Source: Desulforegula conservatrix Mb1Pa (GTDB lineage: Bacteria; Desulfobacterota; Desulfobacteria; Desulfobacterales; Desulforegulaceae). From it: DNA of 33,170 nt. The number at the start of each line of letters is the position of its first letter. Position 1 is the stretch's first letter. Below the pieces are notes generated by a model that had not been told where the DNA came from, ran no database searches, and was given only the letters and a program-made list of their open reading frames with translations. The stretch spans positions 1 through 33,170 of the forward strand of contig NZ_AUEY01000044.1 in NCBI RefSeq assembly GCF_000426225.1, read 5' to 3'. A program made the position numbers and the translations under genes. Below are positions 7,178 through 26,857 of this stretch, in pieces.

Positions 7178-8257
7178 TTAAACCATCAGCTTGCCGTAAT
7201 TGGTTTCAAGCCATTTTCTGTATTCTCCGCTTCGTATTCTTTCTACCCAGTTCAGGTTTGAAAGATACCATTCCACTGTTTTCTTTATGGCCCCTTCAAA
7301 GCTGTAAGCAGGTTCCCATCCAAGTTCATCCCTGATTTTGGAGGAATCTATGGCGTATCTGTAATCATGTCCAAGCCTATCTTTGACGAATGTAATCAGA
7401 TCCCTGTTTTTGCCCTCTGGCCTGCCTAATACCGAATCCAGCATATCGCAGAGGAGTTTGACTATTTCAATGTTTTTTTTCTCTGCTCCTCCGCCTATGT
7501 TGTAAGTCTCGCCGGGCGTCCCTTTTTCAAATACGGTTATAAGTGCGTTGCAGTGATCTTCAACGTAGAGCCAGTCCCTGACATTTGTCCCGCTTCCGTA
7601 AACAGGCAGAGGTTTTTCCTCAATTATGTTCATGATCATCAGGGGAATCAGTTTTTCAGGAAACTGGTAAGGACCGTAATTATTAGAGCAGTTTGTGATT
7701 ATTGCCGGGAATCCGTAGGTTCTGTGCCATGCTGCCACAAAATGATCCGAGGATGCTTTTGATGCAGAGTAGGGACTTGAAGGATCATAGGGTGTTGATT
7801 CAGTGAATCTGCCTTCATCCCCAAGGCTTCCGTAAACTTCGTCTGTCGAAACATGTATGAATCTGAAATCCGTTTCTACGTCAAGGGCCTTCAGATGTTT
7901 TTCCGAAGCCTCAAGAAGTCTGAACGTGCCTTCCACATTTGTTTTGAGGAAGGCAAGCGGTCCATGAATGGATCTGTCGACATGGGATTCTGCGGCAAAA
8001 TGAAAAACGCCCGCAACAGGTGAGTGCTTTCTGAAAACAGATTCGAGGAATACAGGGTCTATAATATCCCCATTTTCAAAAACATACCTTTTTTCAAGTT
8101 CCTTATCCATGTCAGACAGATTTTCAGGATTGCCCGCATATGTCAGGGCATCTATGTTTATTATTCTCCAGTCCTTCTGTTCTGAAAGAGCCTTTCTTAT
8201 GAAGTTGGAGCCTATGAAGCCGCATCCGCCTGTCACTATTATGTTTTTTAAAGCCAT
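7178..8257 (-). CDS. rfbB: dTDP-glucose 4,6-dehydratase
   Basis: A 359-residue RmlB extended SDR converting dTDP-glucose to dTDP-4-dehydro-6-deoxyglucose. Motifs are GGCGFIGS (10-17), FAAESHVDRSI (88-97), the catalytic STDEVYG with D139-E140, Y163-x3-K167, and NCSNNYGPYQFPEKLIP. These are diagnostic of dTDP-glucose dehydratases. The GGAGG ribosome binding site is 11 bases upstream of the ATG and sits inside a copy of the 45-bp hairpin repeat (8268-8320). That means a repeat insertion, or its ancestral position, now supplies translation initiation. It belongs with rfbA, rfbC and rfbD, although repeats interrupt the spacing on both sides. Confidence 0.96.
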   Translation of the reverse strand: MALKNIIVTGGCGFIGSNFIRKALSEQKDWRIINIDALTYAGNPENLSDMDKELEKRYVFENGDIIDPVFLESVFRKHSPVAGVFHFAAESHVDRSIHGPLAFLKTNVEGTFRLLEASEKHLKALDVETDFRFIHVSTDEVYGSLGDEGRFTESTPYDPSSPYSASKASSDHFVAAWHRTYGFPAIITNCSNNYGPYQFPEKLIPLMIMNIIEEKPLPVYGSGTNVRDWLYVEDHCNALITVFEKGTPGETYNIGGGAEKKNIEIVKLLCDMLDSVLGRPEGKNRDLITFVKDRLGHDYRYAIDSSKIRDELGWEPAYSFEGAIKKTVEWYLSNLNWVERIRSGEYRKWLETNYGKLMV

Positions 8258-8267
8258 TTTACAGATT

Positions 8268-8320
8268 GCCTCCGGCGGGTTGTGTTAAATTTAAAAAAGC
8301 TCCGCAAAAAACTTTTCGGT
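8268..8320. repeat. 45-bp hairpin repeat carrying the rfbB ribosome binding site
   Basis: It contains GCCTCCGGCGGGT, then AAAAAAGCTCCGCAAAAAAC, matching the family seen at 23510-23556. On the minus strand GCCGGAGGC presents GGAGG to the ribosome 11 bases before the rfbB start. Confidence 0.65.
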
Positions 8321-8325
8321 TTATT

Positions 8326-8461
8326 ATTTGATGGACTCGCAAAAAGTCAAAAAAGGGCGACGGCGTCATGCCGGACTTGATCCGGAATCCAATATTCTCA
8401 GGCATTTCTGGATTCCAGCCTGCGCCGGAATGACGGTAATCGGACTTTTTGCGACATTATC
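8326..8461. repeat. Dispersed palindromic repeat, copy D
   Basis: A full copy: GATGGACTCGCAAAAAGTC on the left and GGACTTTTTGCGACATTATC on the right, with CCGGACTTGATCCGGAATCC and GGATTCCAGCCTGCGCCGG inside. It is the most symmetrical copy and lies between manC and rfbB. Confidence 0.85.
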
Positions 8462-8462
8462 A

Positions 8463-9896
8463 TTATTTTGTTCTTCCATAAACATCTTCAAAACGGGCGA
8501 TGTCGTCTTCCCCCAGATACGGGCCTGTCTGTACCTCTATCAGTTCGAGCGGAATTCTTCCAGGATTCTCAAGCCTGTGTGTGACGCCAAGAGGAAGGTA
8601 GGTCGATTCATCTTCTTTTAAAAGAAAAGATTCATTGTCCTTTGTAACAAGAGCTGTCCCATGCACAACAATCCAGTGTTCGGCCCTGTGATAATGCTTC
8701 TGAAGGCTCAGTACTCCGCCGGGTTTGACTGTTATTCTTTTTACCTGAAAGCGGTCAGCAAAGTCTATACTTTCATATGCTCCCCACGGTCTGTAAACTT
8801 TTCTGTGTATTGTTGCCTCTGATCTTTTTGAGGATTTCAGCTTTGATACAAGATGTTTGATATCCTGGCTTCTGTCCATGGGAGATACAAGGACTGCGTC
8901 AGAGGTTTCCACAATAATATGATTTTCAAGACCAATGGCTGCGACCATTCGCTCTGATGCATGTATATAAGAATTTTTAACATCATGAAGCAGGGTGTCA
9001 CCGTGGAGCACGTTCATATTGCAGTCTTTTTTGCCCGTCTGCCACAGAGACTGCCATGATCCCAGATCGTTCCAACCTGCTTTTAAAGGAATCATTACTC
9101 CTCTGTCTGTCTTTTCCATAACAGCATAGTCAATGGAGTCGCTCGGACATGCCTTGAAAGCTTCGGCATCAAGCCTGAAAAAATCGAGATCAGCCTTGCC
9201 GAGTTTTACTGCTGTTTCGCACTGCTTAATCATTTCTGGAGCATATTTTGAGAGCTCTTCAATATAAGTCCCGGCCCTGAACATGAACATGCCGCTGTTC
9301 CAGTAATACTCTCCAGATTCCACATATTTTTTTGCGGTTTCAAGATCAGGCTTTTCTACAAAACTGTCTATAAGAAAGGCTTCTGTTTTTTCATTTATGT
9401 CATCTGAGCAGCAGGCTTTTCCTTTTTTTATATATCCGTATCCTGTCTCAGGAGATTCAGGAACAATTCCGAATGTTATCATGACATTGTTTGTTGCAAT
9501 TTTTGCAGCTGTATTCATGGCTTTTGCAAATGCCTCGGAATTTTCTATGTGATGATCCGCAGGCATGACAAGAAGGACTGCGTCATGATCGGAACGAAAA
9601 GCATGGAACGCGGCAACTGCAACTGCTGGTGCGGTGTTTCTGCCCGCAGGCTCAAGAATGATTGTCGGAGTTTGGGTGCCGATCTGTCTGATCTGTTCTG
9701 CGACCATGAATCTGTGATCTTCGTTACATATTATTATGGGCGAACCTTTTTTTTCGACACCATTAAGTCTGGTCAATGTGTTCTGGAGCATTGTGTCTTC
9801 GTTAACAAGATTGATAAGCTGCTTAGGATAAAGCTCTCTGGATAATGGCCATAGTCTTGTGCCTGAGCCGCCTGCAAGAATTACTGATATTATCAT
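8463..9896 (-). CDS. manC: Mannose-1-phosphate guanylyltransferase / mannose-6-phosphate isomerase
   Basis: A 477-residue bifunctional type II enzyme (AlgA/CpsB/XanB class) making GDP-mannose. The N-terminal pyrophosphorylase has GGSGTRLWP (9-17), YPKQ (23-26), MPADH (111-115), FVEKP (179-183) and WNSGMF (199-204). The C-terminal cupin isomerase, from about residue 365, has RPWGAYE, the metal-binding QKHYHRAEHW (399-408, His401 and His403) and GVTHRLENP with His440. AGGAGA lies 10 bases before the ATG. It is the first gene of the nucleotide-sugar block. No phosphomannomutase or GDP-mannose dehydratase is in the window, so mannose itself, or a sugar made by enzymes elsewhere, is the likely end use. 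Confidence 0.95.
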   Translation of the reverse strand: MIISVILAGGSGTRLWPLSRELYPKQLINLVNEDTMLQNTLTRLNGVEKKGSPIIICNEDHRFMVAEQIRQIGTQTPTIILEPAGRNTAPAVAVAAFHAFRSDHDAVLLVMPADHHIENSEAFAKAMNTAAKIATNNVMITFGIVPESPETGYGYIKKGKACCSDDINEKTEAFLIDSFVEKPDLETAKKYVESGEYYWNSGMFMFRAGTYIEELSKYAPEMIKQCETAVKLGKADLDFFRLDAEAFKACPSDSIDYAVMEKTDRGVMIPLKAGWNDLGSWQSLWQTGKKDCNMNVLHGDTLLHDVKNSYIHASERMVAAIGLENHIIVETSDAVLVSPMDRSQDIKHLVSKLKSSKRSEATIHRKVYRPWGAYESIDFADRFQVKRITVKPGGVLSLQKHYHRAEHWIVVHGTALVTKDNESFLLKEDESTYLPLGVTHRLENPGRIPLELIEVQTGPYLGEDDIARFEDVYGRTK

Positions 9897-14140: not shown

Positions 14141-17100
14141 TTATTTATGTTTCGCTTTCCTGTATGCCGCAGATATTAGGACTACAATCGATGCTATTAT
14201 CCAGAAAAAATCTGCCCGATAGAATTCTGTTACAGAGCTAATGAAACAGGAACTTCCTCCTGATTTTCCAGAAACAGGTTTATCCGTAGGATTTGATGCA
14301 GCAAGTTTTGGCATCGCAGCTTTATGTATGATAATGCCGTTTGAGCATCCGTCTTCGTCTCCATATCCACCGTCCCTGAATTTAAGGGATACTGATTTCC
14401 CGTCTTCAGCAAATGCAGTGTGAGCTGAATAATCAGACCATCCGGTTGTTATGTCATACGAATGCCATCCCGAAGCTTTGTCCAACGCCTGGGAAGAGTA
14501 CAGGATCGCTTCTGCTGTCGCTCCTGGAGTTTTCACTGTTATTCTGATGTCCACAAGCCCGAGAGGAAGTTCGGATGGCGCATTATCTTTACCAGAAATC
14601 CCATCAGCGGTCATGGCAATGAGCGAGTCAACAGAAAAGACATTCTCGGATGATTTAACAGCAATATTTACGTCACCCAATGCTGTTCTGGTGCAGAGAA
14701 TTCCAATCTGGCCCTGATCGTTGACACCGTTTTTGTCAAGATCTGTCTGCGTGTTTATTTCAAATGAATCGGCGACACCGTCATTGTCTGCGTCATCTGG
14801 GCTAACAGCCGATGTGGTGAATTTATAAGGAGAAGACCACATAGTAGCTGTTTCTTGATCATCAATAAACCTAACCCTCCAGAAATATGTCTTGCCAGCG
14901 ATAAGGGATAGTTTCGGAATATTCAGAGACGTCAGGTATTTTGAACTCGTGAGCACAAATACCTGATCGAATGTATCAAAACCGGCTGTGTTGCTGACCT
15001 GCCATTCTGTCTTTTGATGGTTTCCGAATCCTGAAACGCTGCCCGGGGCATTAACTTTTAGGGCAGGAGTAAGAGATGCTGATGTAGCAGCGTTTTCAGG
15101 GGACACAAGCTCAGGAGCAAATGCATTTTCTGTGTCGTTTTCCCTGTTTATGATCGTCACATCTGAAGGATCGATCCCACTATATCCTGGATCGCCTGAA
15201 ACAGCCGCTGCCAGAACAATATAATATGTCTGGTTCCCGTCAACGATTTCGTCATCTATTCCTTTGACTGTAACTGTTTGGGCGATGTTCCAGTTTTCAG
15301 AAGTAAATATGAGGCTTTCAGATGAAACTGTTCCTTCACTCAGATCAGAACTGCTTAAAGGAATGATCACATTTGAAGAAGGACTTGAGTCGAGAACTAC
15401 CGTAAATGTTGCAGTTGAGCCATTTTCGGATGTGTCTCCGCTTGCGTTGCTTACAATTATTCTTCCCTGAACAGGAGGAACATTGACCCTTAATACGGCA
15501 GCGTATGCCGATATCAGGTCAGTGCTTATCTTAATGGCGCTGTTGCCTGTTTTTGTGGATGGGGAAGATTTCCACTGACTTGAAGAATAATCATATGCCA
15601 AGGCAATAAGATTATCTCTGCTGTAGCCATCAGGAATTCTTGCAGCATCATATGGTATTGAAATATCTATGGACGAACTGCTTTTTGCTCCGCTTTCGGA
15701 CAGAACCATGCCGCCGACTATAATATACTCATCAGGTATTGCCGGAATGGAAGTGGCTGTTGATCTGTTTGCAGATCTGTTTCTTATTGCCCAGCCGTTA
15801 TTCTGGGCATAGGAAAGAAGAAGCTGAGGAGTCAGAGCAAGATTGTCCGATGCAAAGGAATCTGGATTTGGGAACACTACATCCTCTGGTATGGTTATCA
15901 CGCAAGATATTCCTGACTCATCCAAGAAACGGACAATTCCTGTCAGTCTTCCTGATCCAGAACCTGGTGAAGCGTTAAACTTTATGATGGTATTGCTGCC
16001 AAAAGTGACGTTGTTCAGAGTTCCGTTATTTATGATGCTACCGCTTATCTGGCCTCCTGAAATGACAGCATCATCGCTTATTGTTACTGCGTAGGTCGGA
16101 TTTTCTGTTAATCCATCTGGTGCAGTGCCGGAAATTATACCGTTATTTGTAATCGCTCCGGAAAGTGTTCCGCCAAAAATATGGCCTTGAATGTTTGAGC
16201 CTGAAACAATGCCGCCTTTGTTGTCAAGAGCCGTGTCTGTGGTAAAAATTACATTGTTAAGCAGGCCAGTATTTGATGAATTTCCTGATACTGTTCCTCC
16301 GGTCACCGTTCCATGATTTGTGAGGTCTGACAGAGTTGCGTTGTTATTCACAGTTCCGCCGTCATTAATTATCACACCAGTGTGATCCGAATTGTTTGGC
16401 AGAATGGTGCCTGGAGGAATTATCTGGGTGTTGTGGTTCACCTCTGGATTCTGCGTAGGTGGTGTCGGAGGTGGAGGAGGGGGTTGTGGTGATGGCGTGT
16501 CATTGTCTGTGTTTGTGACAGATATATCATTAGGGTTAATGCCGCTGTATTTCGGATCTGTGCTTACGGCAGCAGAAGTAATAATTTGGTAAGATTTGCC
16601 TCCATCAACAATCGAATCATCAACACCTGTAACTGTCACGGTTTGGGGAGTATTCCAGTTAGCTGCTGTAAATACGAGGCTTGATGGCGATACTGTGCCT
16701 TCCGATGTATTGCTTGATGCAAGATTGATCGTAACGTCGGCAGTTGGGACGCAGTCGAGAACAACTGTGAATGTTGCCGTTCCTCCGGCTTCTGTTGTCG
16801 TGAGACCGCTTGTGGGCGTGACAAGTATTCCGCATAAACCTGAACCTGAAATAGCGAAGGCGTAAGGATTTGTTGCGGAGTTATTTGCTATGTTTATTGT
16901 GGCGGTTTTTGTACCAGATCCTGCTGGATCGAATGTCACAGTAAAAGTGGTTTCTCCGTTGGTTGCAGAAACAGGTGAGGATGGCTGACTTGAAACAGTG
17001 AATTCGGCAGCATTCGGCCCGGAAATTCCGACTTTTGGCGTTCCTGAAATATCTATAGCCGCTGATCCTGTGTTTTTGATCGTGAAGGTTCTTTGAACAG

Positions 17101-20100
17101 TTCCGCCTGTGACCGCGATGGCTCCGAAATCAGTATGGTCTGCGGACGATGGGGTGGCATCTCCGCTTGCAATGGCTGTTGAATTGCCCTCAATGCTCAT
17201 CAGAGGCGCTGCTGTTCCTGTTCCCTGAATCGAGAAGTTGTAAGGATTCTCGTCAGAGTCGTCATTTGCGATGCTGATCGTGGCGATTCTTGTGCCTGTT
17301 GCCGATGGATCGAACCTGACTGTGAAGGTTGTCGTTCCGCTTGATGCCACTGTCGATGCAGCCTGGCTTGTGACAGAAAAGTCTGAGCCGCTTATTGATA
17401 CGACGGGTGTTCCTGAGAGATTAAGTGCCGTTCCCCCTGTGTTTTCTATGGTGAAGGTTCGGTCTATCGCTCCTGTTGCTATGTCTGCGCTTCCGAAATC
17501 TGTATGATCACCGGATGAAGGCGTTGTATCTCCATCTGCTATCGATAAGTTATTACCCTTTAAATTTATCTCTGGTCCGGTGGTTCCTGTCCCCTGAATC
17601 GAGAAGTTGTAAGGATTCTCGTCAGAGTCGTCATTTGCGATGCTGATCGTGGCGGTTCTTGTTCCTGTTGAAGAAGGATTGAATCTTACTGTGAAGCTTG
17701 AAGTCCCGTTTGAGGCAACAGGCGATGATGGCTGAGCTGTGACCGTAAAGTCTGCTTGATTGGCTCCGCTTATTGCAACTCTTGGAGTTCCGATTAAATT
17801 AAGGTCTGCGCTTCCTGTATTTTCTATTGTGAAGGTTCGATCTATTGTTCCTGTTGCTATGTCCGCACTTCCGAAATCTGTATTATCCCCGGATGAAGGA
17901 GTGGTATCACCGTCTGTTATTGATGTGTTATTGCCCTTAACGTTCATCTCCGGAGCTGACGTACCTGTTCCCTGAATCGAGAAGTTGTAAGGATTTTCGT
18001 CAGAGTCGTTATTTGCTATGCTGATTTCTGCTGTTTTAGCTCCGAGTGATGAAGGATCGAAAGTAACCTGGAAAGTCAGCGATCCTGAGGCTGATATTGC
18101 TGACGATGATGGCTGGGTTGTTACGTTGAACTGATCTTGGTTTGCTCCGCTAATTGTTACTCTTGGCGTCCCGCTTAAATTTAAAACATCTGTTCCTGTA
18201 TTCTTTATTGTAAATGTTCTTACTACTGTGCCAGCTAATATATCAGCATTCCCAAAGTCCGAGTGATCCCCTGCAGATGGCGATGCATTTCCATCTGCTA
18301 TCTCTATGGCATTTCCTTCCACACTCATTTCAGGTGAAAGAGCTTTCACTGTTACAGATTGTTGTGCCGCTAATCCATTTCCATCAGTTATTATAATATT
18401 TATGGTTTGGTTGCCGGGATCTTTTTCAGGCGAATATTTTAAATTTCTTAATAGAGTCTGAACTCTTTGCGGAGTGGCGTTGGTATTAAAAAAAATTTTT
18501 AATTCCTGCCCAGAATTACCAGTTAATAATTGATCAACGACTCCTATATCTTGTTCATCCACCCTAATAGATTCACCGCTGCTTATTATGGCATCTGGAC
18601 CAGACTTTACATTTGTTCCATCAAAAAGAAAACTGCCCTGGGGTCCTTGTGGATTAGTGGTTTGGAGTCTTCCTGGCCAAAAAGTAGGTGAATCCGGATC
18701 TGTTAATACCGCATTCTGACCGACATCCAAATACCCGGACCCGCCTATTGAAATTGAAGGGTTATCGGCATTCAGGTTTGTTATTACAGGTGCTTCGTTT
18801 ACGTTATTTATGGTAATCGTGAAAGCCTTGTCAAATGTCAGGCTTCCCTGATCTGTTGAACGTACACGCACAGAATAGCTGCTTTTTGTTTCATAGTCAG
18901 GACTGTTTGTTATCCGCAGACTGCTTCCGCTTGTATTGAACGAAGCATTGTCAGTATCGCCTGCGCCTGTTACCAAACTATATGTGAAAGTATTGCCTGC
19001 ATCAGTATCAGTGGAGCTTAATGTTCCCACCGTTGTGTTTCCTGCAACATTCTCGTTTACAGAACTTGCAGAGAGGGAAATATCTGTCGGAGTCTCATTT
19101 AAATTGTTTATTGTGATCGTGAATGATTTTTCATAGGTCTGGTTTCCCTGATCAGTAGTTCTGACACGAACGGAATAGCTGTTTTTTGTTTCATAATTAG
19201 GACTGCTTGTTATCCGCAGACTGCTTCCGTTTATATTGAACGAAGCATTGTCCGTATCACCGGCACCCGCAACCAGAGTATACGTGAAGGTATTGCCTGC
19301 ATCCGGATCTGTGGAAGCAAGCGTTCCTACTGCGGTATTTCCAGCAATATTCTCGTTTACAGAACTTGCAGAGAGGGAAATATCTGTCGGAGCCTCATTC
19401 AGATTGTTTATTGTGATTGTGAGTGATTTTTCATAGGTCAGGGTTCCCTGATCAGTAGTTCTGACACGAACGGAATAGCTGTTTTTTGTTTCATAATCAG
19501 GACTGCTTGTTATCCGCAGACTGCTTCCGTTTATATTGAACGAAGCATTGTCCGTATCACCGGCACCCGCCACTAACTCATAAGTGAAGGTATTTCCGAC
19601 ATCAGGATCACTCGTAGATAAAGTTCCTACTGCTGTATTGCCTGCTACATTTTCATTTACAGAACTTGCAGATAAAGAAACATCGGTTGGTGCATTATTT
19701 ACAGTTAAAGTTTTAAAGCTAACCTGGTCTCCGTAACTTGTGCCTGAGGTATTAGTTGCATAAGCACGTACATAATAAGTGGTGTTTGCACTTAATCCGG
19801 TCATTGAACCAGTAAAAGCACCTGTTGCAGAAGCTGTCCCTTTATCGGTCTTGCTATCAGCAGTAGTTGGGGTTCCTGTTGTATTCCAACAAACACCGTG
19901 GGCTGTTGGATTAGGTGTACCTAAAGAGGTAATGTTTCCATTTCCGGTTGCTGTTGCCGAAGTTATTGATGATACGGCTTGAGTCGTTACGGTGGGGGTA
20001 AGCGTTATAACAGTATAAGTATTTGGATATAAAAGCGTTGGCGCTGTACCCGATGCCAATGTTGTCCAGTTAGCGGAATTCGCGACCCTTGATCTCCAAT

Positions 20101-20779
20101 CTGCAGCGGTTGCAGCTGTAGTTGGCCCACTATAATAACCATCATCAACAGTAAGGTCTGTTCCTGATCCTAAATCCGGAAAATAAAGAGCATTTGTCCC
20201 ATTTGTTAAGCCTGATGGTAAATTTGACCAATAATAGTTCGCATAGCTGCCTTGCCCCCATTGGCCTGTATGATGTCCCCAAATAAATATAGGGGAAGTG
20301 AACGAACCTTGAAATACAAGCAATCCATCATGGCCTGTATTCAGAGAATTAAATGAATAAATAAAATTGGGAGGATTCGTCTGACCATTCAGAATATAAT
20401 TATATGTACATTCACTATTTGCAGTAAAAGAATTTCCTCCAATATTAGCCGTATCTTGTCGGATTAGTTTACCGGCTGTAATTGTTTCTGGAGCCGTATA
20501 AGTAATTACATTTCCACCACCACTCGGGGGATTACCGTCTTCATAAGGATGAAAAGCAGTCCCATCCCACCCATAATCAGTAAAATTGATCTGAGTACCT
20601 GGATCTAAATCTACCAATGGCATAAATGTAAAACCATCAGTACCATTCCCATTAAATTCCAGTATTACCACATCACCAGGATTCAGTGTGGTTTGTGCCA
20701 TACCCATCGTCGGGAACAGGCACATCAGAATCAACGAAAGCATCACCCCTGTCATCAATAGTTTTCTTGTTTTATTCAT
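14141..20779 (-). CDS. Giant secreted multidomain surface protein (cadherin / choice-of-anchor D / Calx-beta)
   Basis: A 2212-residue exported protein. In order: signal peptide (about 1-28, ending MGMAQ); an unassigned beta domain (30-255); an FN3-like domain (260-358); three 100-residue cadherin-like repeats (about 360-657, [17 protein letters not shown]); a further beta domain; four 125-residue choice-of-anchor-D-like repeats (about 813-1317); a Calx-beta-like domain ([13 protein letters not shown]...VDD); a Pro-rich hinge with six consecutive Pro; a Gly/Asn-rich beta-helix-like stretch (about 1446-1620); a second Calx-beta-like domain (about 1770-1882); an Asp-rich calcium-type [12 protein letters not shown] segment (about 1991); a choice-of-anchor-U-like domain; and GGSSCFISS with Cys2178, a transmembrane helix (2191-2206) and a basic tail. 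AAAGGAAAG precedes the ATG. The likely role is a calcium-stabilised adhesin or matrix protein. The sorting enzyme is not in the window. Confidence 0.9.
16828..18345 (-). repeat. Four tandem ~125-codon repeats inside the giant gene
   Basis: Choice-of-anchor-D-like units begin near 18345, 17960, 17580 and 17215. A nearly invariant DNA stretch, including CCTGAATCGAGAAGTTGTAA, recurs at about 17223, 17591 and 17971. This marks recent duplication or gene conversion. The fourth unit is the most divergent. Confidence 0.85.
18800..19700 (-). repeat. Three tandem 300-bp cadherin-like repeats inside the giant gene
   Basis: The units have a period of exactly about 300 bp (100 codons). The first two are almost identical over some 130 bp, for example GGAATAGCTGTTTTTTGTTT at both 19171 and 19471. 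The third has diverged somewhat. Confidence 0.9.
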
Positions 20780-20915
20780 ATGTCTTTCCTTTGCTAAAGA
20801 TTGTAGGAACTTGATGATGTAAGTACGACATCGTTAACCCTTGTGATCTATGATTACCATACTTTATAATTATCCAGAGATTGACCACAGATTGAAAAAA
20901 TAAAAAAGTGAAAAA

Positions 20916-20963
20916 AATATCCCCCATTTAATCTCCTTTCAGGAGGAATAAAGGGGGGATATT
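20916..20963 (-). terminator. Strong intrinsic terminator between the Cys protein and the giant gene
   Basis: AATATCCCCC (20916-20925) pairs with GGGGGATATT (20954-20963), and an inner CTCCT/AGGAG stem extends it. On the minus strand it runs into TTTTTTTCACTTTTTTA. It should end transcripts from the 21028-21261 gene, with partial read-through possible. The 20780-20915 stretch then holds the giant gene's leader; I see no convincing -35/-10 there apart from TATAAAGTAT. Confidence 0.8.
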
Positions 20964-21027: not shown

Positions 21028-21261
21028 TTATGACCTGAATATCAAAGATTCGTTTAATCCTTGATCTGACATTATATTCTTTTGATCATCATGAGACTTC
21101 GATTTATCGCCTTCTTCTAAACGATAGTATTCACATGCCTCAAATCTGCCCCCGCAGAATTCAACTATCTTTGATATCCAGATGCTCTGCGATCTGAGAC
21201 AATAGCATTCAGGTAAAGGATTTATTAATAAAGGGCATTGTCTGTTTTTATTTACATTCAT
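21028..21261 (-). CDS. Small five-cysteine protein
   Basis: 77 residues with Cys at 9, 19, 21, 36 and 43 in the pattern CP-x8-C-Y-C-x14-C-GG-x4-C-E-Y-Y. I recall similar small deltaproteobacterial proteins with the CYC...YCGG.F..CE.Y spacing, but know no function; a metal or Fe-S site or redox switch is possible. The Cys-poor tail is hydrophilic and probably disordered. There is no signal peptide. It has a terminator downstream and a perfect sigma-54 promoter directly upstream. That promoter would start transcription only about 2 bases before this ATG, with no in-frame ATG, GTG or TTG alternative before the first Cys, so the message would be leaderless. The start is otherwise unsupported by a ribosome site. 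Confidence 0.72.
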   Translation of the reverse strand: MNVNKNRQCPLLINPLPECYCLRSQSIWISKIVEFCGGRFEACEYYRLEEGDKSKSHDDQKNIMSDQGLNESLIFRS

Positions 21262-21377: not shown

Positions 21378-21423
21378 TGTAACATGTTACAGAGTGTAAT
21401 GTTACAATGTGTAATATGTTACA
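21378..21423. promoter_or_regulatory. Triple-palindrome activator array (UAS)
   Basis: Three sites: TGTAACATGTTACA (21378-21391), TGTAATGTTACA (21395-21406) and TGTAATATGTTACA (21410-21423). Their centres, 21384.5, 21400.5 and 21416.5, are exactly 16 bp apart. Position relative to the sigma-54 promoter is typical of NtrC-family enhancer sites. Confidence 0.75.
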
Positions 21424-21633: not shown

Positions 21634-23352
21634 TCACTCTATTCCGGCATCCTTGAGTTTTCTGTAGAGTGTCTGGCGGCTTATTCCGAGTATTCTCGCT
21701 GTTTCGGCCTTATTCCATTTTGTTTCTTTCATGGCAGTCAGAAGTGCTTCAGCTTCGGAATTGTTTTTTTGATCCGATCTTGAGGAATTCTCCGAAGCAG
21801 ATGGCCTTGCAAAATCATCAGGAAGATCTCCAGACGTAATAATAGAGTTACGGCAGATTATAGACGCATGCTCAATGATATGGCGAAGCTCCCTTATATT
21901 GCCGGGCCATGGGTACTCCATAAAAAGCTTAATGACATCTGATGAAACATCTTCAATTTTTTTATTAAACTCTAAACAAAATTCTTTGAGGAAAAAATCT
22001 GTCAGGAGTGGAATGTCTTCTCTTCGATCCTTCAAAGATGGAAGTCTTATTTCAACGACTTTCAGCCTGTAATAAAGATCTTCCCTGAATGTTCCTTGAG
22101 CGACAAGTTCTTTAAGATCTCGGTTGGTGGCAGCAATGATCCTTACATCTACTTTTATTGGTTGTGAGTCTCCAACCTTTTCAAATTCCTTTTCCTGAAG
22201 TACGCGAAGGAGTTTTTGCTGAAGAGTAGGGGATATGTCACCGATTTCATCTAAGAAAAGGGTACCTTCGTCAGCTTTTTCAAATCTTCCAGCTCTGTCG
22301 GTATTAGCGCCTGTAAAGGCCCCTTTAATGTGGCCAAAAAGTTCGCTTTCAAGAACTGATTCAGAAAGCGCAGAACAGTTGACCTTTACAATGGGCTTGT
22401 CGCGCCTGATACCTGAAAAGTGAAGAGCCTCTGCAACCAGTTCCTTTCCGGTTCCACTTTCCCCAGTTATGAGTACAGTGCTTCTGATGTCAGAAAGGCT
22501 CTCTATAAGAGAATAAATTTTCTGCATAGGAGAGCTTTTGCCTATGATGGCTTTTCTGAAATCCCTGCGGCGGTTAAGATCCTTCTCAAGGACGCTGATT
22601 CTTGTTTCATCGCTTATTGCGATTACTGCTCCATTGCTTTCATTATGGCCATTTTTGAATGGAGATACTTTTAGCGTGTAGACAGAGCTGTGTTTCGGAC
22701 ATTCGTATTTGTAGACAGAAGCTGTCTTTCCAGTAGTTATTGATTCCTGAACAGTATTGATAAGTCTGCGCCTGCATTCTTCTGAACAGAGATTTTTATG
22801 TGCATCGCCTTCCTGATGATCCAGTTTTTGACCGACTGACGTATTAGAAAACATGCAGAATTTTACGGCGGACTGATTCAGGTCTGTTATCGTCAGATGC
22901 TTGTCAACTGAGAGCATGGCGTCTGAAACACTCTGGAATATGGCTTCAATATTTCTGCGGTAACGTAATGCCTCTCTGCTTATGGAATTATGTCTTATGG
23001 CTCCACGCGTGACATGAAGAAGTATATCAAGTTCCACAGGCTTGCAGAGATAATCATATCCTCCCTGTCTTACAGCCTCGGCAGCGCTGTTTACAGTCGG
23101 AAAGCCAGTGATGATGACTATGGGTGTAGTAATTCCTCTGGTCTTGCATTCTGCGAGGAAATCCACGCCGGTTTCCTTTCCGGACAGATTGATGTCTGTG
23201 AAAATAACATCGTATTCAGTCTTGCTGGTTAATGTGACTGCTTCCCGAAATTCACAGGCAGTATCGACAGAATATCCATTTTTTGAAAGAAAGCGGCGGA
23301 ATGTTTCTCTCAGACTTGCATCATCTTCAATGATGAGGATTCTCTGAATCAT
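21634..23352 (-). CDS. NtrC-family sigma-54-dependent response regulator with a PAS domain
   Basis: A 572-residue activator. Receiver domain 3-118 with phosphoacceptor D53 and K104; PAS domain about 132-255; AAA+ sigma-54 activation domain about 270-500 with Walker A GESGTGKE (297-304), the sigma-54-contacting GAFTGA loop (344-349) and Walker B GTLFLDE (362-368); Fis-type helix-turn-helix 534-570 (NKAETARILGISRQTLYRKL). The PAS region holds four cysteines (166, 189, 193, 218), suggesting a redox or metal input. I chose the ATG at 23352, with AAGG 7-8 bases upstream, because the receiver begins there; the frame stays open to 23484, but that 44-residue extension resembles no domain. A hybrid kinase lies upstream on the same strand, and a sigma-54 promoter with an activator array lies downstream. 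Confidence 0.96.
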   Translation of the reverse strand: MIQRILIIEDDASLRETFRRFLSKNGYSVDTACEFREAVTLTSKTEYDVIFTDINLSGKETGVDFLAECKTRGITTPIVIITGFPTVNSAAEAVRQGGYDYLCKPVELDILLHVTRGAIRHNSISREALRYRRNIEAIFQSVSDAMLSVDKHLTITDLNQSAVKFCMFSNTSVGQKLDHQEGDAHKNLCSEECRRRLINTVQESITTGKTASVYKYECPKHSSVYTLKVSPFKNGHNESNGAVIAISDETRISVLEKDLNRRRDFRKAIIGKSSPMQKIYSLIESLSDIRSTVLITGESGTGKELVAEALHFSGIRRDKPIVKVNCSALSESVLESELFGHIKGAFTGANTDRAGRFEKADEGTLFLDEIGDISPTLQQKLLRVLQEKEFEKVGDSQPIKVDVRIIAATNRDLKELVAQGTFREDLYYRLKVVEIRLPSLKDRREDIPLLTDFFLKEFCLEFNKKIEDVSSDVIKLFMEYPWPGNIRELRHIIEHASIICRNSIITSGDLPDDFARPSASENSSRSDQKNNSEAEALLTAMKETKWNKAETARILGISRQTLYRKLKDAGIE

Positions 23353-23440
23353 TATTATACCTTGGGCTGTATATGTCTGTTTTATAACTGTAAAACTACG
23401 ATAGTATCCATCGTGACTATGCACTATTTTCAGTATTGTT

Positions 23441-23469
23441 CTTGGGAGCGAAACAATGGTTGTCCCAAG
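23441..23469. repeat. Inverted repeat upstream of the NtrC-like gene
   Basis: CTTGGGA (23441-23447) and TCCCAAG (23463-23469) could form a 7-bp stem. A second overlapping dyad, ACGAT-N7-ATCGT, lies near 23398-23414. Either could be an operator or leader structure in the 322-bp kinase-regulator gap. Confidence 0.3.
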
Positions 23470-23509
23470 CGATGGTTGCACCATCTATTCTTTAAACCAC
23501 ATAACACAT

Positions 23510-23674: not shown

Positions 23675-26600
23675 TTATTGGTTCTTATCAATTATTGGAA
23701 AATCTATAATGACCGTGGTTGAAATCCCTGCCTCGCTTTCAATTACCATGGATCCTCTATGATCCGATATTATATTCTGGGACACGCTAAGTCCGAGTCC
23801 TGTACCTTTCCCAACAGGCTTTGTAGTAAAAAAAGGCATCATGATCCTATTAATAAGACTTTCTGGAATTCCTGTTCCGAAGTCCTTAAAAGTCAGTCTC
23901 ACAAGTTTGTCTGATCCAAAATTGATCAGTTCTCCCTCAATTATTATTTTTTTGTTTTCATCCAGACCCTGGTATTTTTCATTCAGGGCGTGGGCCGCAT
24001 TATTTATAATATTAAGAAAAACCTGAGTGATAAGCTGGCTGTTCATGTTGATCTCAGGCAGATTGTCCGCAATGTCTATTTGAAGCCGGATATGATCATT
24101 TCTTAATTTAGCTTCAACCAAACAGATACTTTCTGAAATTATATTGCCAATTCTGCAAGGTGCTTTTTCACCTGAACCTGTTCTGGCGAATGACAGTAGG
24201 GCGCTTACAATTCCTGCTATTCTTCTGCCTTCGCTTTTAATGACCCCTGCATCCTGTTCGAGTTCTTCACGGCTATCTGCCATGAGAATGAGCTGGCTAG
24301 AGTTTATGATTGTATTGATGGGCGTGTTGACTTCATGGGCTATGCTTGCGGCTAATTCTCCAAGCATGGCAAGACGGCCAGCTCTGCGGGCTTCTTCTTC
24401 AGCTCTGATTATTTTCAGCTGAACCCTGGTTCTGGCAAGAAGCTCTTCCCGCGCAAACGGTTTTCCGAGATAATCGTTGGCTCCGCATTCAAGTCCTTTT
24501 GTAATATCAGACAGTCTTTTTCTGGCCGTTAGAATAATAATAGGAAGCTCTGTTATGCTGAACTTCCTGCGTAGCTCTTTGCAGACCTCGAATCCAGACA
24601 AACCAGGCATCATGAGGTCAAGCAGAATAAGATCGAATGATTCACCTGAGTCTACAAGAGCAAGGGCTTCCATGCCGTCCTTGGCGGTTGTGACAGCCAT
24701 TCCTTCAAGCGAAAGATGATTTCTGAGGACCTGAAGATTAACCGGATCATCATCCACGGCGAGAATCCTGGCAAGACCTTTGGTATTGAAAATTGGATTC
24801 AGGTTTTCAAAATCATTTTCCGGCAAATTCTGTATGAACGGAGCAGGAGATTCAGACGGCGCTGCTAAAGCGTCGGGATCTTTACATACAGGAATTGTAA
24901 AATGGAATGTAGAACCTTTGCCTATGCTTGATTCTGCCCATAGCCTGCCGCCGTGAAGCTCTGTAAGGTGGTGGCTTATTGACAGTCCTAACCCTACTCC
25001 TCCCATGGATGCTGAAGAGTCATCCTGTTCAAAGGGCCGGAATATGATTTCCATACTATCAGGATGTATCCCAGTGCCTGTATCGCTGACAGCAATTTCT
25101 ATCATGTCTTTCTTTTTTTTTGCTGAAACTCTTATTTCGCCTTTGTCTGTGAATTTTACGGCATTGCCCAAGAGGTTGAAAAAAATCTGTATAAGCCTGT
25201 CTTCATCGCCTTCTGCAAACGGGAGCCACATGGATATTGCGTTTTCAATGGAGATACCTTTTTTCTGGGCAAGAGGTTTTATTACTCCAATTGCAATATC
25301 TGCTATAGATCTTAAGTCCACAGCCTTAATATCTATTTTGAGGTCGTTATTTTCAAGTCTGGAAAAATCCAGAATATCATTGACAAGCGTGCTTAGCCTT
25401 TTTGCGCTGTTTACTATCATGATAAGATTTGCTGCAGACTGCCGTGAAAGCTCTCCCCCTGATCCAGCTAACATTGATTCTGAAAGTCCTATGATTCCTG
25501 AGAGAGGAGTGCGTAGCTCATGGGATGTGTTTGCCAGGAATTCGTCCTTGATCCTGTCAAGTTTTGAAAGTTTGAGATAGTTTTCTTTTAATTCAGAAGA
25601 CAGGTTTTCAACTGATGAAAAAGCCTTGGAAAATCTGAGGGAAAGTGCAAAAGCCTGAAAAAGAACAAAAAAGAATACGCCCACATGAATCAGATAAACT
25701 GATTGAATAATATGCATATCTGTAAGCATATCATTTATGCCCGCAGACCCAATTATAATAAATCCTATTAGTATGAAGGTTGCTCCTTCAAGCTTTTTCA
25801 GCCTTGCTCTGTTAAGTTTAAAAAAACTGTATACGATCAGAAGAGCAGATGTGGAAAAATAGATCGGTACTAATGCTGTGAGAATAAATACAGGAATCGT
25901 AAGGCCAAGAAGTGTAAAAAAAACAGCCAGAATGCTGGATGCTATCAGTATTTTTCTTGAAAATTCTTTTGGGTAGAGGGATCTGAAAAATTGATAGCCC
26001 ACTGGTATTGTAAGAAAGAAGAATATCTGATCAAGTCGGCTCAAAACCTGGATTGGAGTAACAGGCAAAAAAAGACGAATTACCCATGCACTTGAGTTTG
26101 AAACAAGGAAGTTTGCCATCCATAGAAGACAGTAAAAACCAAAGTAAAGGGTTGAAGGGTTTTTTCTGCGGAACAGAAAGAGGACCAGATGATATCCTCC
26201 CATCACAAGAAGACTGCCAACGAAAAATAGGGCTATGCCCCACTGTTTTGTCTGTTCGGCTGTAATTTGGTTATGATGACCAATTCTGACTGATGAGGTT
26301 ATTCCACCTTCCCTGAAATAGTGATTCGAAACCTGAAGAACCAGCTCAATTGGCTCGCCGTCCGATTGGAATTCCGGCATCAGGACAGACGGATTTGGTA
26401 CTTCGTTTTCTGATGATTTTCCAACTTTACCGCTTTCAGCAAGCAGTTGGCCATTTATCCAGAGCCTGTATGCGGAAGAAATGTCAAAAATGCGCAGGGC
26501 AAGTCTATCTTGTGCTTTTTCAGGTATTATTTTGAGTCTGTATGTGGCGTATCCTTTACCATTTATTTTTTTGCCTTCGTATTCATAATTTCTCCAAGTT

Positions 26601-26857
26601 GATGGAATAGGAAGGTAATCTGATTTTTCATGCCCTGAAATATTCTTAAAATCATCTGGTTCGAGGAGCTGGCCGAAATAAAATTCCCATTCCCCGTCGA
26701 GATTTACAGTGCCGTCTTTTTTTAAATTCCATCCTGACATATCTATTCTGCCCTTAATGGCTAACGGAGTCTTTTTATTCTCAACACATCCGGAGCAAAT
26801 TGATAAAACAAGGATCAGGAAGAGACAAAAAAATATTTTGAATGTTCTTGAAATCAG
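23675..26857 (-). CDS. Lipoprotein-type 7TMR-DISM hybrid histidine kinase with two kinase cores
   Basis: Numbering is from the first in-frame ATG (26740). An extracytoplasmic jelly-roll domain (about 14-155, LDGEWEFYFG) is followed by seven membrane helices (168-372) and kinase core 1 (H407 in SHELRTPL, N526, DTGTG 553-557, GVGLGLS 581-587). A receiver follows (D708 in LLLDLMMPG, K760), then kinase core 2 (H802 in AHEVNTP, N913/N914, GTGLGLS 979-985). The frame continues upstream of the ATG through R-T-F-K, a hydrophobic run and L-S-I-C-S-G-C, a lipoprotein-like signal, so the true start must lie upstream. The only sensible candidates are CTG at 26857 or ATT at 26854, 5 or 8 bases after GAGG. 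From CTG the protein is 1060 residues. The NtrC-like regulator downstream is its probable target. Confidence 0.9.
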   Translation of the reverse strand: MISRTFKIFFCLFLILVLSICSGCVENKKTPLAIKGRIDMSGWNLKKDGTVNLDGEWEFYFGQLLEPDDFKNISGHEKSDYLPIPSTWRNYEYEGKKINGKGYATYRLKIIPEKAQDRLALRIFDISSAYRLWINGQLLAESGKVGKSSENEVPNPSVLMPEFQSDGEPIELVLQVSNHYFREGGITSSVRIGHHNQITAEQTKQWGIALFFVGSLLVMGGYHLVLFLFRRKNPSTLYFGFYCLLWMANFLVSNSSAWVIRLFLPVTPIQVLSRLDQIFFFLTIPVGYQFFRSLYPKEFSRKILIASSILAVFFTLLGLTIPVFILTALVPIYFSTSALLIVYSFFKLNRARLKKLEGATFILIGFIIIGSAGINDMLTDMHIIQSVYLIHVGVFFFVLFQAFALSLRFSKAFSSVENLSSELKENYLKLSKLDRIKDEFLANTSHELRTPLSGIIGLSESMLAGSGGELSRQSAANLIMIVNSAKRLSTLVNDILDFSRLENNDLKIDIKAVDLRSIADIAIGVIKPLAQKKGISIENAISMWLPFAEGDEDRLIQIFFNLLGNAVKFTDKGEIRVSAKKKKDMIEIAVSDTGTGIHPDSMEIIFRPFEQDDSSASMGGVGLGLSISHHLTELHGGRLWAESSIGKGSTFHFTIPVCKDPDALAAPSESPAPFIQNLPENDFENLNPIFNTKGLARILAVDDDPVNLQVLRNHLSLEGMAVTTAKDGMEALALVDSGESFDLILLDLMMPGLSGFEVCKELRRKFSITELPIIILTARKRLSDITKGLECGANDYLGKPFAREELLARTRVQLKIIRAEEEARRAGRLAMLGELAASIAHEVNTPINTIINSSQLILMADSREELEQDAGVIKSEGRRIAGIVSALLSFARTGSGEKAPCRIGNIISESICLVEAKLRNDHIRLQIDIADNLPEINMNSQLITQVFLNIINNAAHALNEKYQGLDENKKIIIEGELINFGSDKLVRLTFKDFGTGIPESLINRIMMPFFTTKPVGKGTGLGLSVSQNIISDHRGSMVIESEAGISTTVIIDFPIIDKNQ

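Follow-up and report, generated by a model that had tools for sequence, protein, structure and literature searches.

On the minus strand of the window, by which we mean the whole stretch of 33,170 nucleotides analysed here, the gene of a hybrid histidine kinase is followed in turn by that of a bEBP, an array of short palindromes, a predicted sigma54 promoter, a 77-aa frame, a hairpin and the gene of a 2212-aa protein:

23675..26740, minus strand: hybrid histidine kinase with a 7TMR-DISM sensor (Pfam)
21634..23484, minus strand: response-regulator bEBP with receiver, PAS, AAA+ (with GAFTGA) and Fis-type HTH domains (Pfam, translation)
21378..21423, strandless: predicted enhancer array, three palindromes or six half-sites, in a layout also seen in relatives
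21378-21391: palindrome 1, TGTAACATGTTACA, centre 21384.5, TGTAA-N4-TTACA
21395-21406: palindrome 2, TGTAATGTTACA, centre 21400.5, TGTAA-N2-TTACA
21410-21423: palindrome 3, TGTAATATGTTACA, centre 21416.5, TGTAA-N4-TTACA
21289-21275, minus strand: predicted sigma54 -24/-12 promoter, TGGCACAATAATTGC (pattern TGGCAY-N5-TTGC)
21028..21261, minus strand: gene of a Cys-rich small protein of 77 aa (translation; relatives in other genomes)
20963-20911, minus strand: intrinsic-terminator-like hairpin with a U tract (RNA fold)
14141..20779, minus strand: next gene, 2212-aa surface-type protein with choice-of-anchor D, cadherin and HYDIN-like Ig domains (Pfam, NCBIfam)

The Pfam matches in the regulator (21634-23484) are Response_reg, PAS, Sigma54_activat and HTH_8, and residue 45 appears the more likely translation start. 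On the basis of its Pfam domains and its adjacency, the hybrid kinase is the probable partner of this regulator. With regard to the promoter, the pattern TGGCAY-N5-TTGC is matched only once in the whole window, at 21289-21275, where the -24 T of the element lies 111 bp from the array centre; rpoN is present in the genome. The locus therefore combines what characterises a bEBP-dependent sigma54 enhancer, namely a nearby regulator with AAA+, GAFTGA and HTH, rpoN in the genome, and a -24/-12 promoter near enough to be reached by looping.

The promoter points at the 77-aa gene, which is the probable direct target of the predicted enhancer and promoter. Its ATG is about 2 nt past the predicted transcription start, and the -24 element just 28 nt before the ATG, so that the message would be nearly leaderless, judging from the position of the -12 element. 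The hairpin at 20911..20963 folds at -24.9 kcal/mol (z -4.33, with 1 of 200 shuffles equally good), while a simple terminator scan with a loop limit of 3-8 listed none at this place; it presumably closes a small transcription unit. As it separates the 77-aa gene from the 2212-aa gene, the latter is a putative target at most. The 2212-aa protein also carries a choice-of-anchor U domain, and sugar-nucleotide genes are found at 7178-9896 in the window.

Geometry of the array and its recurrence

Direct reading and a pattern search both placed six alternating TGTAA/TTACA half-sites in the 46 bp of 21378-21423, and bore out the three palindromes, their centres and the 4, 2 and 4 bp spacers described in the earlier note. 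The half-sites start at 21378 (>), 21387 (<), 21395 (>), 21402 (<), 21410 (>) and 21419 (<), i.e., with successive spacings of 9, 8, 7, 8 and 9, which makes the layout two-fold symmetric; the centre-to-centre steps are 16 and 16 bp. Among 400 Markov windows generated with intergenic composition, each as long as the window (33,170 bases), the largest number of such half-sites per 46 bp was 2 in 243 windows, 3 in 153 and 4 in 4, and never 6. The six-half-site array is not a chance product.

The genome itself comprises 4.47 Mb in 178 contigs. Allowing at most 3 mismatches, TTACA-N3-TGTAA-N2-TTACA-N3-TGTAA occurs there in two places, the window (0 mismatches) and positions 144-171 of contig C20 (2 mismatches), and its reversed control in one. 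The same 12-bp palindrome at C42:1918 was set aside as a chance occurrence, since it lies, by our own reading, inside the apparent coding frame of an arsA-like ATPase and is not accompanied by an array.

Relatives of the regulator (E 1e-112 or better) were found in 86 of 389 genomes, this one included. The 109 regulator matches yielded 102 fetched loci, to which 3 others were added, making 105; two duplicate fetches were removed, as were 2 loci with less than 100 nt of downstream sequence, leaving 103. Six further loci (L135 and L139-L143), fetched for their arrays and having no regulator match, stand outside all counts on the 103. Periodicity was assessed independently of any motif, by scoring every 5-mer repeated within 250 nt after the regulator stop codon at the 103 loci, window included. 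Repeats at lag 16 were seen 91 times, in 34 loci, versus 24.1 expected (z 12.9), and those at its harmonic, lag 32, 67 times versus 25.3 expected (z 5.8). Leaving out the window and all TGTA/TACA words still gave 79 repeats at lag 16. Other raised lags at the 103 loci were 15 (z 7.9), 18 (4.4), 34 (4.1), 21 (3.1), 14 (3.0) and 12 (2.7). The 62 closest loci gave the stronger signal, with 69 repeats for 15.1 expected; the remaining 41 had 22 for 9.8 expected.

Two controls gave no lag-16 peak: the 250 nt before the matched gene part, with 20 repeats versus 22.3 expected at 101 loci, and a set of 13 other bEBPs from the order, with 5 versus 2.9 expected. In the second set, lag 32 had 11 repeats, contributed by 3 loci (2.6 expected, z 3.7), and lag 14 had 10 (z 3.0). 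In 34 loci of other taxa, lag 16 was weakly raised (16 versus 8.7 expected, z 2.1), and lag 18 reached 21 (z 3.3). The same 101 upstream flanks had a raised lag 18 (63 versus 21.6 expected), with words mostly between -140 and -90 that are probably coding sequence.

A scan for six half-sites of any word in symmetric layouts gave a score of at least 25 at 22 of the 103 loci (nulls, 2/309) and of at least 26 at 12 (nulls, 1/309), with 81 loci below 25. The clean array is thus limited to a minority of loci, though pooling the loci brings out the periodicity. Inverted gaps of 4-2-4 were found in 10 of the 22 arrays scoring at least 25, 3 of the 27 layouts tried qualifying as 4-2-4. When spacings were left free between 6 and 10, 27 of the 103 loci reached 26 (null, 2/103); at least three of these (L186, L089 and L230), kept in the count, resemble A+T-rich simple sequence. 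Among the centre-to-centre steps of the 27 loci, 45 of 54 fall within 15-17, with a mode at 16.0 (22/54; null, 15/206), and the period is therefore preferred rather than fixed. Hence, of the exact 16-bp period proposed earlier, the exactness holds in the window, whereas most steps in relatives spread over 15-17; the recurrence of a period of about 16 bp in related genomes, a check proposed beforehand, was found in both the lag counts and the commonest step. Across the order, TTACA-N3/4-TGTAA-N2/4-TTACA occurs at 50 places in 32 of 389 genomes, and the reversed control at 11, which indicates that single triples are partly due to chance.

The alternating layout stays while the half-site word changes among loci. 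L200 and L215 share the 9-8-7-8-9 spacing and the word TGTAA (five half-sites each, the sixth not recognisable), whereas L224 (TGGAA), L101 (TGTGC) and L218 (TGCGA) show this spacing with other words; hand reading adds L139, with two decayed halves. L171 and L175 carry TGTGC in an 8-8-8-8-8 layout (inverted spacing 3-3-3), and just four or five half-sites are recognisable in L138, L084 and L093. Candidatus Jettenia ecosi (L040, 7778-7825) has TGTCC....AGACA....TGTCA..AGACA....TGTCT....AGACA, i.e., 9-9-7-9-9 with inverted gaps of 4-2-4, after a regulator 50% identical to that of the window; a pattern search of 400 nt gave no sigma54-like site there. Together with the 10 arrays mentioned above, it repeats the 4-2-4 alternation first noticed in the window. 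Three loci of one genus (g41; L135, L136 and L137) have arrays read as 9-9-7-9-9, with outer halves one letter off, preceding genes for products in which CxxCH motifs were noticed by eye.

Promoter, recognition helix and candidate targets

A sigma54-like site lies within 450 nt after the regulator gene at 58 of the 103 loci, versus 3.2 expected and 4 on the other strand; by class, it is present at 17 of the 22 array loci versus 41 of the 81 others. The distance from the array centre to the -24 element is 111-124.5 bp in 14 of the 17 arrays with such a site, and 88, 101 and 171 in the rest. Half-site words were compared with the recognition helix of the regulator, leaving out 16 of the 103 loci that gave no parsed helix. 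At least two TGTAA halves occur at 23 of 32 SRQ/SRP loci versus 2 of 24 [SG]RR loci (Fisher 1.8e-6), at least two TGTGC at 1 of 32 versus 13 of 24 (Fisher 1.4e-5), and TGGGA at 4 of 6 NRK loci versus 1 of 56 (Fisher 1.3e-4), all three being raw counts that ignore kinship. A tree-based covariation test, for which supported branches provided only 3 to 5 independent pairs, gave no clear association between word and helix. It is thus suggestive, at the level of sequence, that the half-site word tracks the recognition helix. Such a rule, pairing SRQ/SRP with TGTAA and [SG]RR with TGTGC, could help to identify regulons in little-studied bacteria.

The array on contig C20 (135-180, locus L102) is in the same register as that of the window, with 35 of 46 bases identical and two of the six half-sites decayed, and is followed about 100 bp on, by our own reading, by a weaker sigma54-like element, AGGCCCAAATTTTGC. 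It stands before the following operon:

L102 135-12769 (contig C20): sulfotransferase, 1888-aa DUF4347/Big_5/cadherin protein, OEP (TolC-type), C39-type ABC and HlyD

This weaker array probably controls the operon, with its sulfotransferase, giant DUF4347-cadherin protein and type I secretion genes. Because it precedes a secretion operon, the predicted regulon is likely to comprise, besides the small 77-aa protein, a surface protein and the system for its secretion. The genome also encodes a paralogous bEBP (L095, contig C4, regulator at 14382-15713), past whose stop codon a TGTAA-N4-TTACA palindrome and a sigma54-like site were noticed; the frame downstream resembles a thiolase when read by eye.

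Relatives of the 77-aa protein occur in 36 of the 389 genomes of the order (E 0.01 or better, window included). In the alignment, which covers 23 of 30 loci, the other 7 having given no frame by regular expression, C9, P10, C19, C36, C43 and Y46 (window numbering) are invariant, and the family signature reads CPF...P..DCYC...S..I.....YC......C..Y. None of the three members scanned matched a Pfam family at E 1, and in NCBIfam one of them gave a single meaningless match (E 0.11); the structure predicted for the window protein is poor (mean pLDDT 51.7, pTM 0.25). The analysis thus points to a small Cys-rich family lacking a Pfam or NCBIfam model, as far as these three members go, and predicted to be under this control. 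Upstream of 12 of the 23 aligned genes, a sigma54-like site is found within 450 nt; in the 11 of them other than the window gene, this site lies 79-284 nt before the ATG. Of 107 loci, only 6, the window among them, carry a family gene no more than 1.5 kb past the regulator, which implies that the target varies among loci; a seventh regular-expression match in this position, in L096, is a different kind of protein.

Readings of the array

The enhancer role of the array is well supported by these sequence comparisons. As the earlier note had supposed, the palindromes very probably serve the NtrC-like protein encoded beside them as its enhancer for a sigma54 promoter, to judge from the array, the promoter and their recurrence. 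In its full form, with the array as the upstream activating sequence of the neighbouring two-component bEBP, accommodating three dimers, i.e., one hexamer, in front of a sigma54 promoter, we give this reading a probability of roughly 0.8. The phosphorylated regulator would bind as three dimers side by side, one per palindrome, the 46 bp offering six helix-turn-helix sites, the number present in one AAA+ hexamer. Adjacent dimers, one and a half turns apart, would lie on alternate faces, and the whole complex would be two-fold symmetric around the central palindrome. Ring assembly would then be templated by the DNA and followed by looping across about 110-125 bp, whereupon the GAFTGA loops would open the sigma54 polymerase complex and the window promoter would express the 77-aa Cys-rich protein. 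Several observations speak against this scheme. The inner spacing ranges from N2 to N4, a variation hard to square with a rigid dimer, and the half-sites are closer together than those of GlrR. Further points are the low share of loci with a clean array, the lack of a clear association on the tree, the arrays with just four or five recognisable half-sites, the other raised lags, the rarity of the small-protein gene behind the regulator, and the Jettenia array with no sigma54-like site in the 400 nt searched.

Possible, though doubtful, is a more specific proposal in which the six half-sites form a mould for one hexamer, its DNA-binding domains winding about once, left-handed, round the DNA. 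At 10.5 bp per turn, the half-site steps round the duplex amount to -51 to -120 degrees in the three complete layouts, and sum to -0.90 to -1.19 turns over the six sites, i.e., about one left-handed turn. The dyad would be at the central palindrome, and the ring would be built both on the enhancer and round it, instead of next to three dimers aligned along a single face. If so, a geometry kept while word and helix change would set these elements apart as an architectural class of their own among sigma54 enhancers.

It seems unlikely that the dimer site is instead the everted element TTACA-N3/4-TGTAA, of which the window would hold two perfect copies 15 bp apart (centres 21393 and 21408), with two flanking single half-sites and a recruited third dimer. 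An arrangement of two sites plus a recruited third dimer is described for NtrC in the part of PMC8899819 available to us; in the window, the everted spacing is constant (8, 8) whereas the inverted one varies (9, 7, 9), and isolated everted pairs exist, GTTACA-N4-TGTAAC in L097 and TTACA-N3-TGTAA in L078 and L081. Nevertheless, the outer half-sites of the window are as good as the inner ones, L171 and L175 have arrays with inverted spacings of 3-3-3, and the two halves of an inverted pair in L079 are separated by N3, as in NorR sites.

That the sigma54 transcript is a small RNA of the CrcZ/GlmY type, with the array as its enhancer and the 77-aa frame incidental, we consider quite improbable. 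The unit of about 345 nt is closed by the terminator-like hairpin, and the region folds more stably than its shuffles (z -2.81). As a precedent, bEBP enhancers drive CrcZ and CrcY according to the portion of PMC6296734 at hand. Another is GlmY, a small RNA driven by a bEBP from a three-site enhancer. However, the frame belongs to a Cys-rich family conserved in 36 of 389 genomes, so that the transcript does not lack a conserved reading frame; Rfam gave no match at the gathering score, and a DNA search of 57 relatives only short matches (E 0.007 or worse). A CrcZ-like RNA, first considered because of the hairpin at 20963-20911, was set aside in view of this conserved family.

We hold it for very improbable that the palindromes serve another DNA-binding protein, such as a repressor, or mark the end of the regulator gene. 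Their position directly past the regulator stop codon at many loci would fit, but L139 and L140 carry arrays, and none of the frames compared there encodes a related regulator. The C20 array precedes an operon whose six scanned frames include no regulator, although its contig starts 143 nt before the array and thus covers this one side. The near-fixed distance to the sigma54 site argues against both variants, as does the agreement, in raw counts, between half-site word and recognition helix. Finally, chance or slippage, i.e., a duplicated 16-bp unit without function, is in our view a negligible option, since three copies of a similar unit would suit slippage whereas the spacers alternate 4-2-4 instead of being identical, the layout recurs with other words, and the Markov windows, the lag test and the cross-genome scans, with the recurrence that these reveal, all disfavour it.

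Comparison with known enhancers

To our knowledge, the assembly of bEBP hexamers on enhancers is still mostly inferred, and no description of a 16-bp six-half-site enhancer was found in the openly licensed literature covered. Array terms were absent from the part of PMC6615313 consulted, single palindromic sites are what the accessible part of PMC4641369 treats, and no tight array was seen in the E. coli zraP-zraS intergenic region. In Desulfovibrio vulgaris, most validated response-regulator sites are inverted repeats of 4 to 6 bp with 3 to 8 bp between them (PMC3333781, in the section available), so that single sites like those of the window are ordinary; it is their packing that differs.

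Several sigma54 systems share some of its features. Like the window, the PEP-CTERM box with PrsK-PrsR pairs a response-regulator bEBP with a kinase. The box, a 17-nt motif ending in TTTACA that precedes a sigma54 motif and is sometimes repeated, is described, in the part of Haft 2006 (PMC1569441) at our disposal, without the tight periodic array of the window. The window regulator scores 367.3 bits against TIGR02915 (PrsR), below the cut-off of 502.6, and the NCBIfam matches of the 2212-aa and 77-aa proteins, the two scanned, include no PEP-CTERM model. At adhA1/adhA2 of Clostridium beijerinckii, the available text of PMC7017808 reports three UAS before a sigma54 promoter, each required for full activity, for AdhR, a GAF-PAS regulator and not, as in the window, a response regulator. 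LurR of the Desulfovibrio lactate operon is a sigma54-dependent response regulator with sites at -389, -350 and -250 (PMC6456213, partial text), i.e., 39 and 100 bp apart versus 16 and 16 bp in the window.

Three further parallels are three-site enhancers as well. GlrR (QseF), which we take to be a sigma54-dependent response regulator binding the three inverted repeats at glmY, has sites of the type TGTC-N10-GACA that we measured in E. coli to be 33 and 63 bp apart, whereas the half-sites of the window are closer together, 7-9 bp apart. With regard to CbrB, whose gene is presumably followed directly by crcZ, the likeness is in a two-component bEBP acting through three short subsites of related words at a sigma54 promoter. 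In the part of PMC6296734 seen, the Pseudomonas putida subsites at crcZ, crcY and PP2810 (two of these three targets being sRNAs) are TGTTAC/GTAACA words, non-palindromic and spaced by 20-25 bp on the same helical face; the window differs in its perfect 5-bp palindromic arms and its 16-bp steps. The NorR enhancer of E. coli norVW resembles the window in having three inverted repeats and a sigma54 promoter. Its sites, of the GTCA-N3-TGAC type with one imperfect, all three scaffold higher-order oligomers, and NorR carries a GAF domain and is not a response regulator, unlike the regulator studied here (PMC2941729, as far as available). The window thus has the three repeats and promoter of the NorR type, and neither its two-turn spacing nor its core, the centres being 21 and 24 bp apart by our measurement in E. 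coli K-12 versus 16 and 16 bp, with GT-N7-AC versus GT-N8-AC, GT-N6-AC and GT-N8-AC.

The 46-bp element is a natural, two-fold symmetric set of six half-sites, in a layout that recurs with different words in relatives within the order and in Candidatus Jettenia. The enhancers that we measured have few and wider-spaced sites. For footprinting and cryo-EM, the element offers a substrate that is compact and well defined. The spacing, whose opposite-face geometry the earlier note had called unusual, is tighter at 16 bp than the 21 and 24 bp of NorR, the 33 and 63 bp of GlrR or the 20-25 bp given for CbrB in the portion of PMC6296734 cited above, a comparison which supports the view that the array is unusually tight among measured three-site enhancers.
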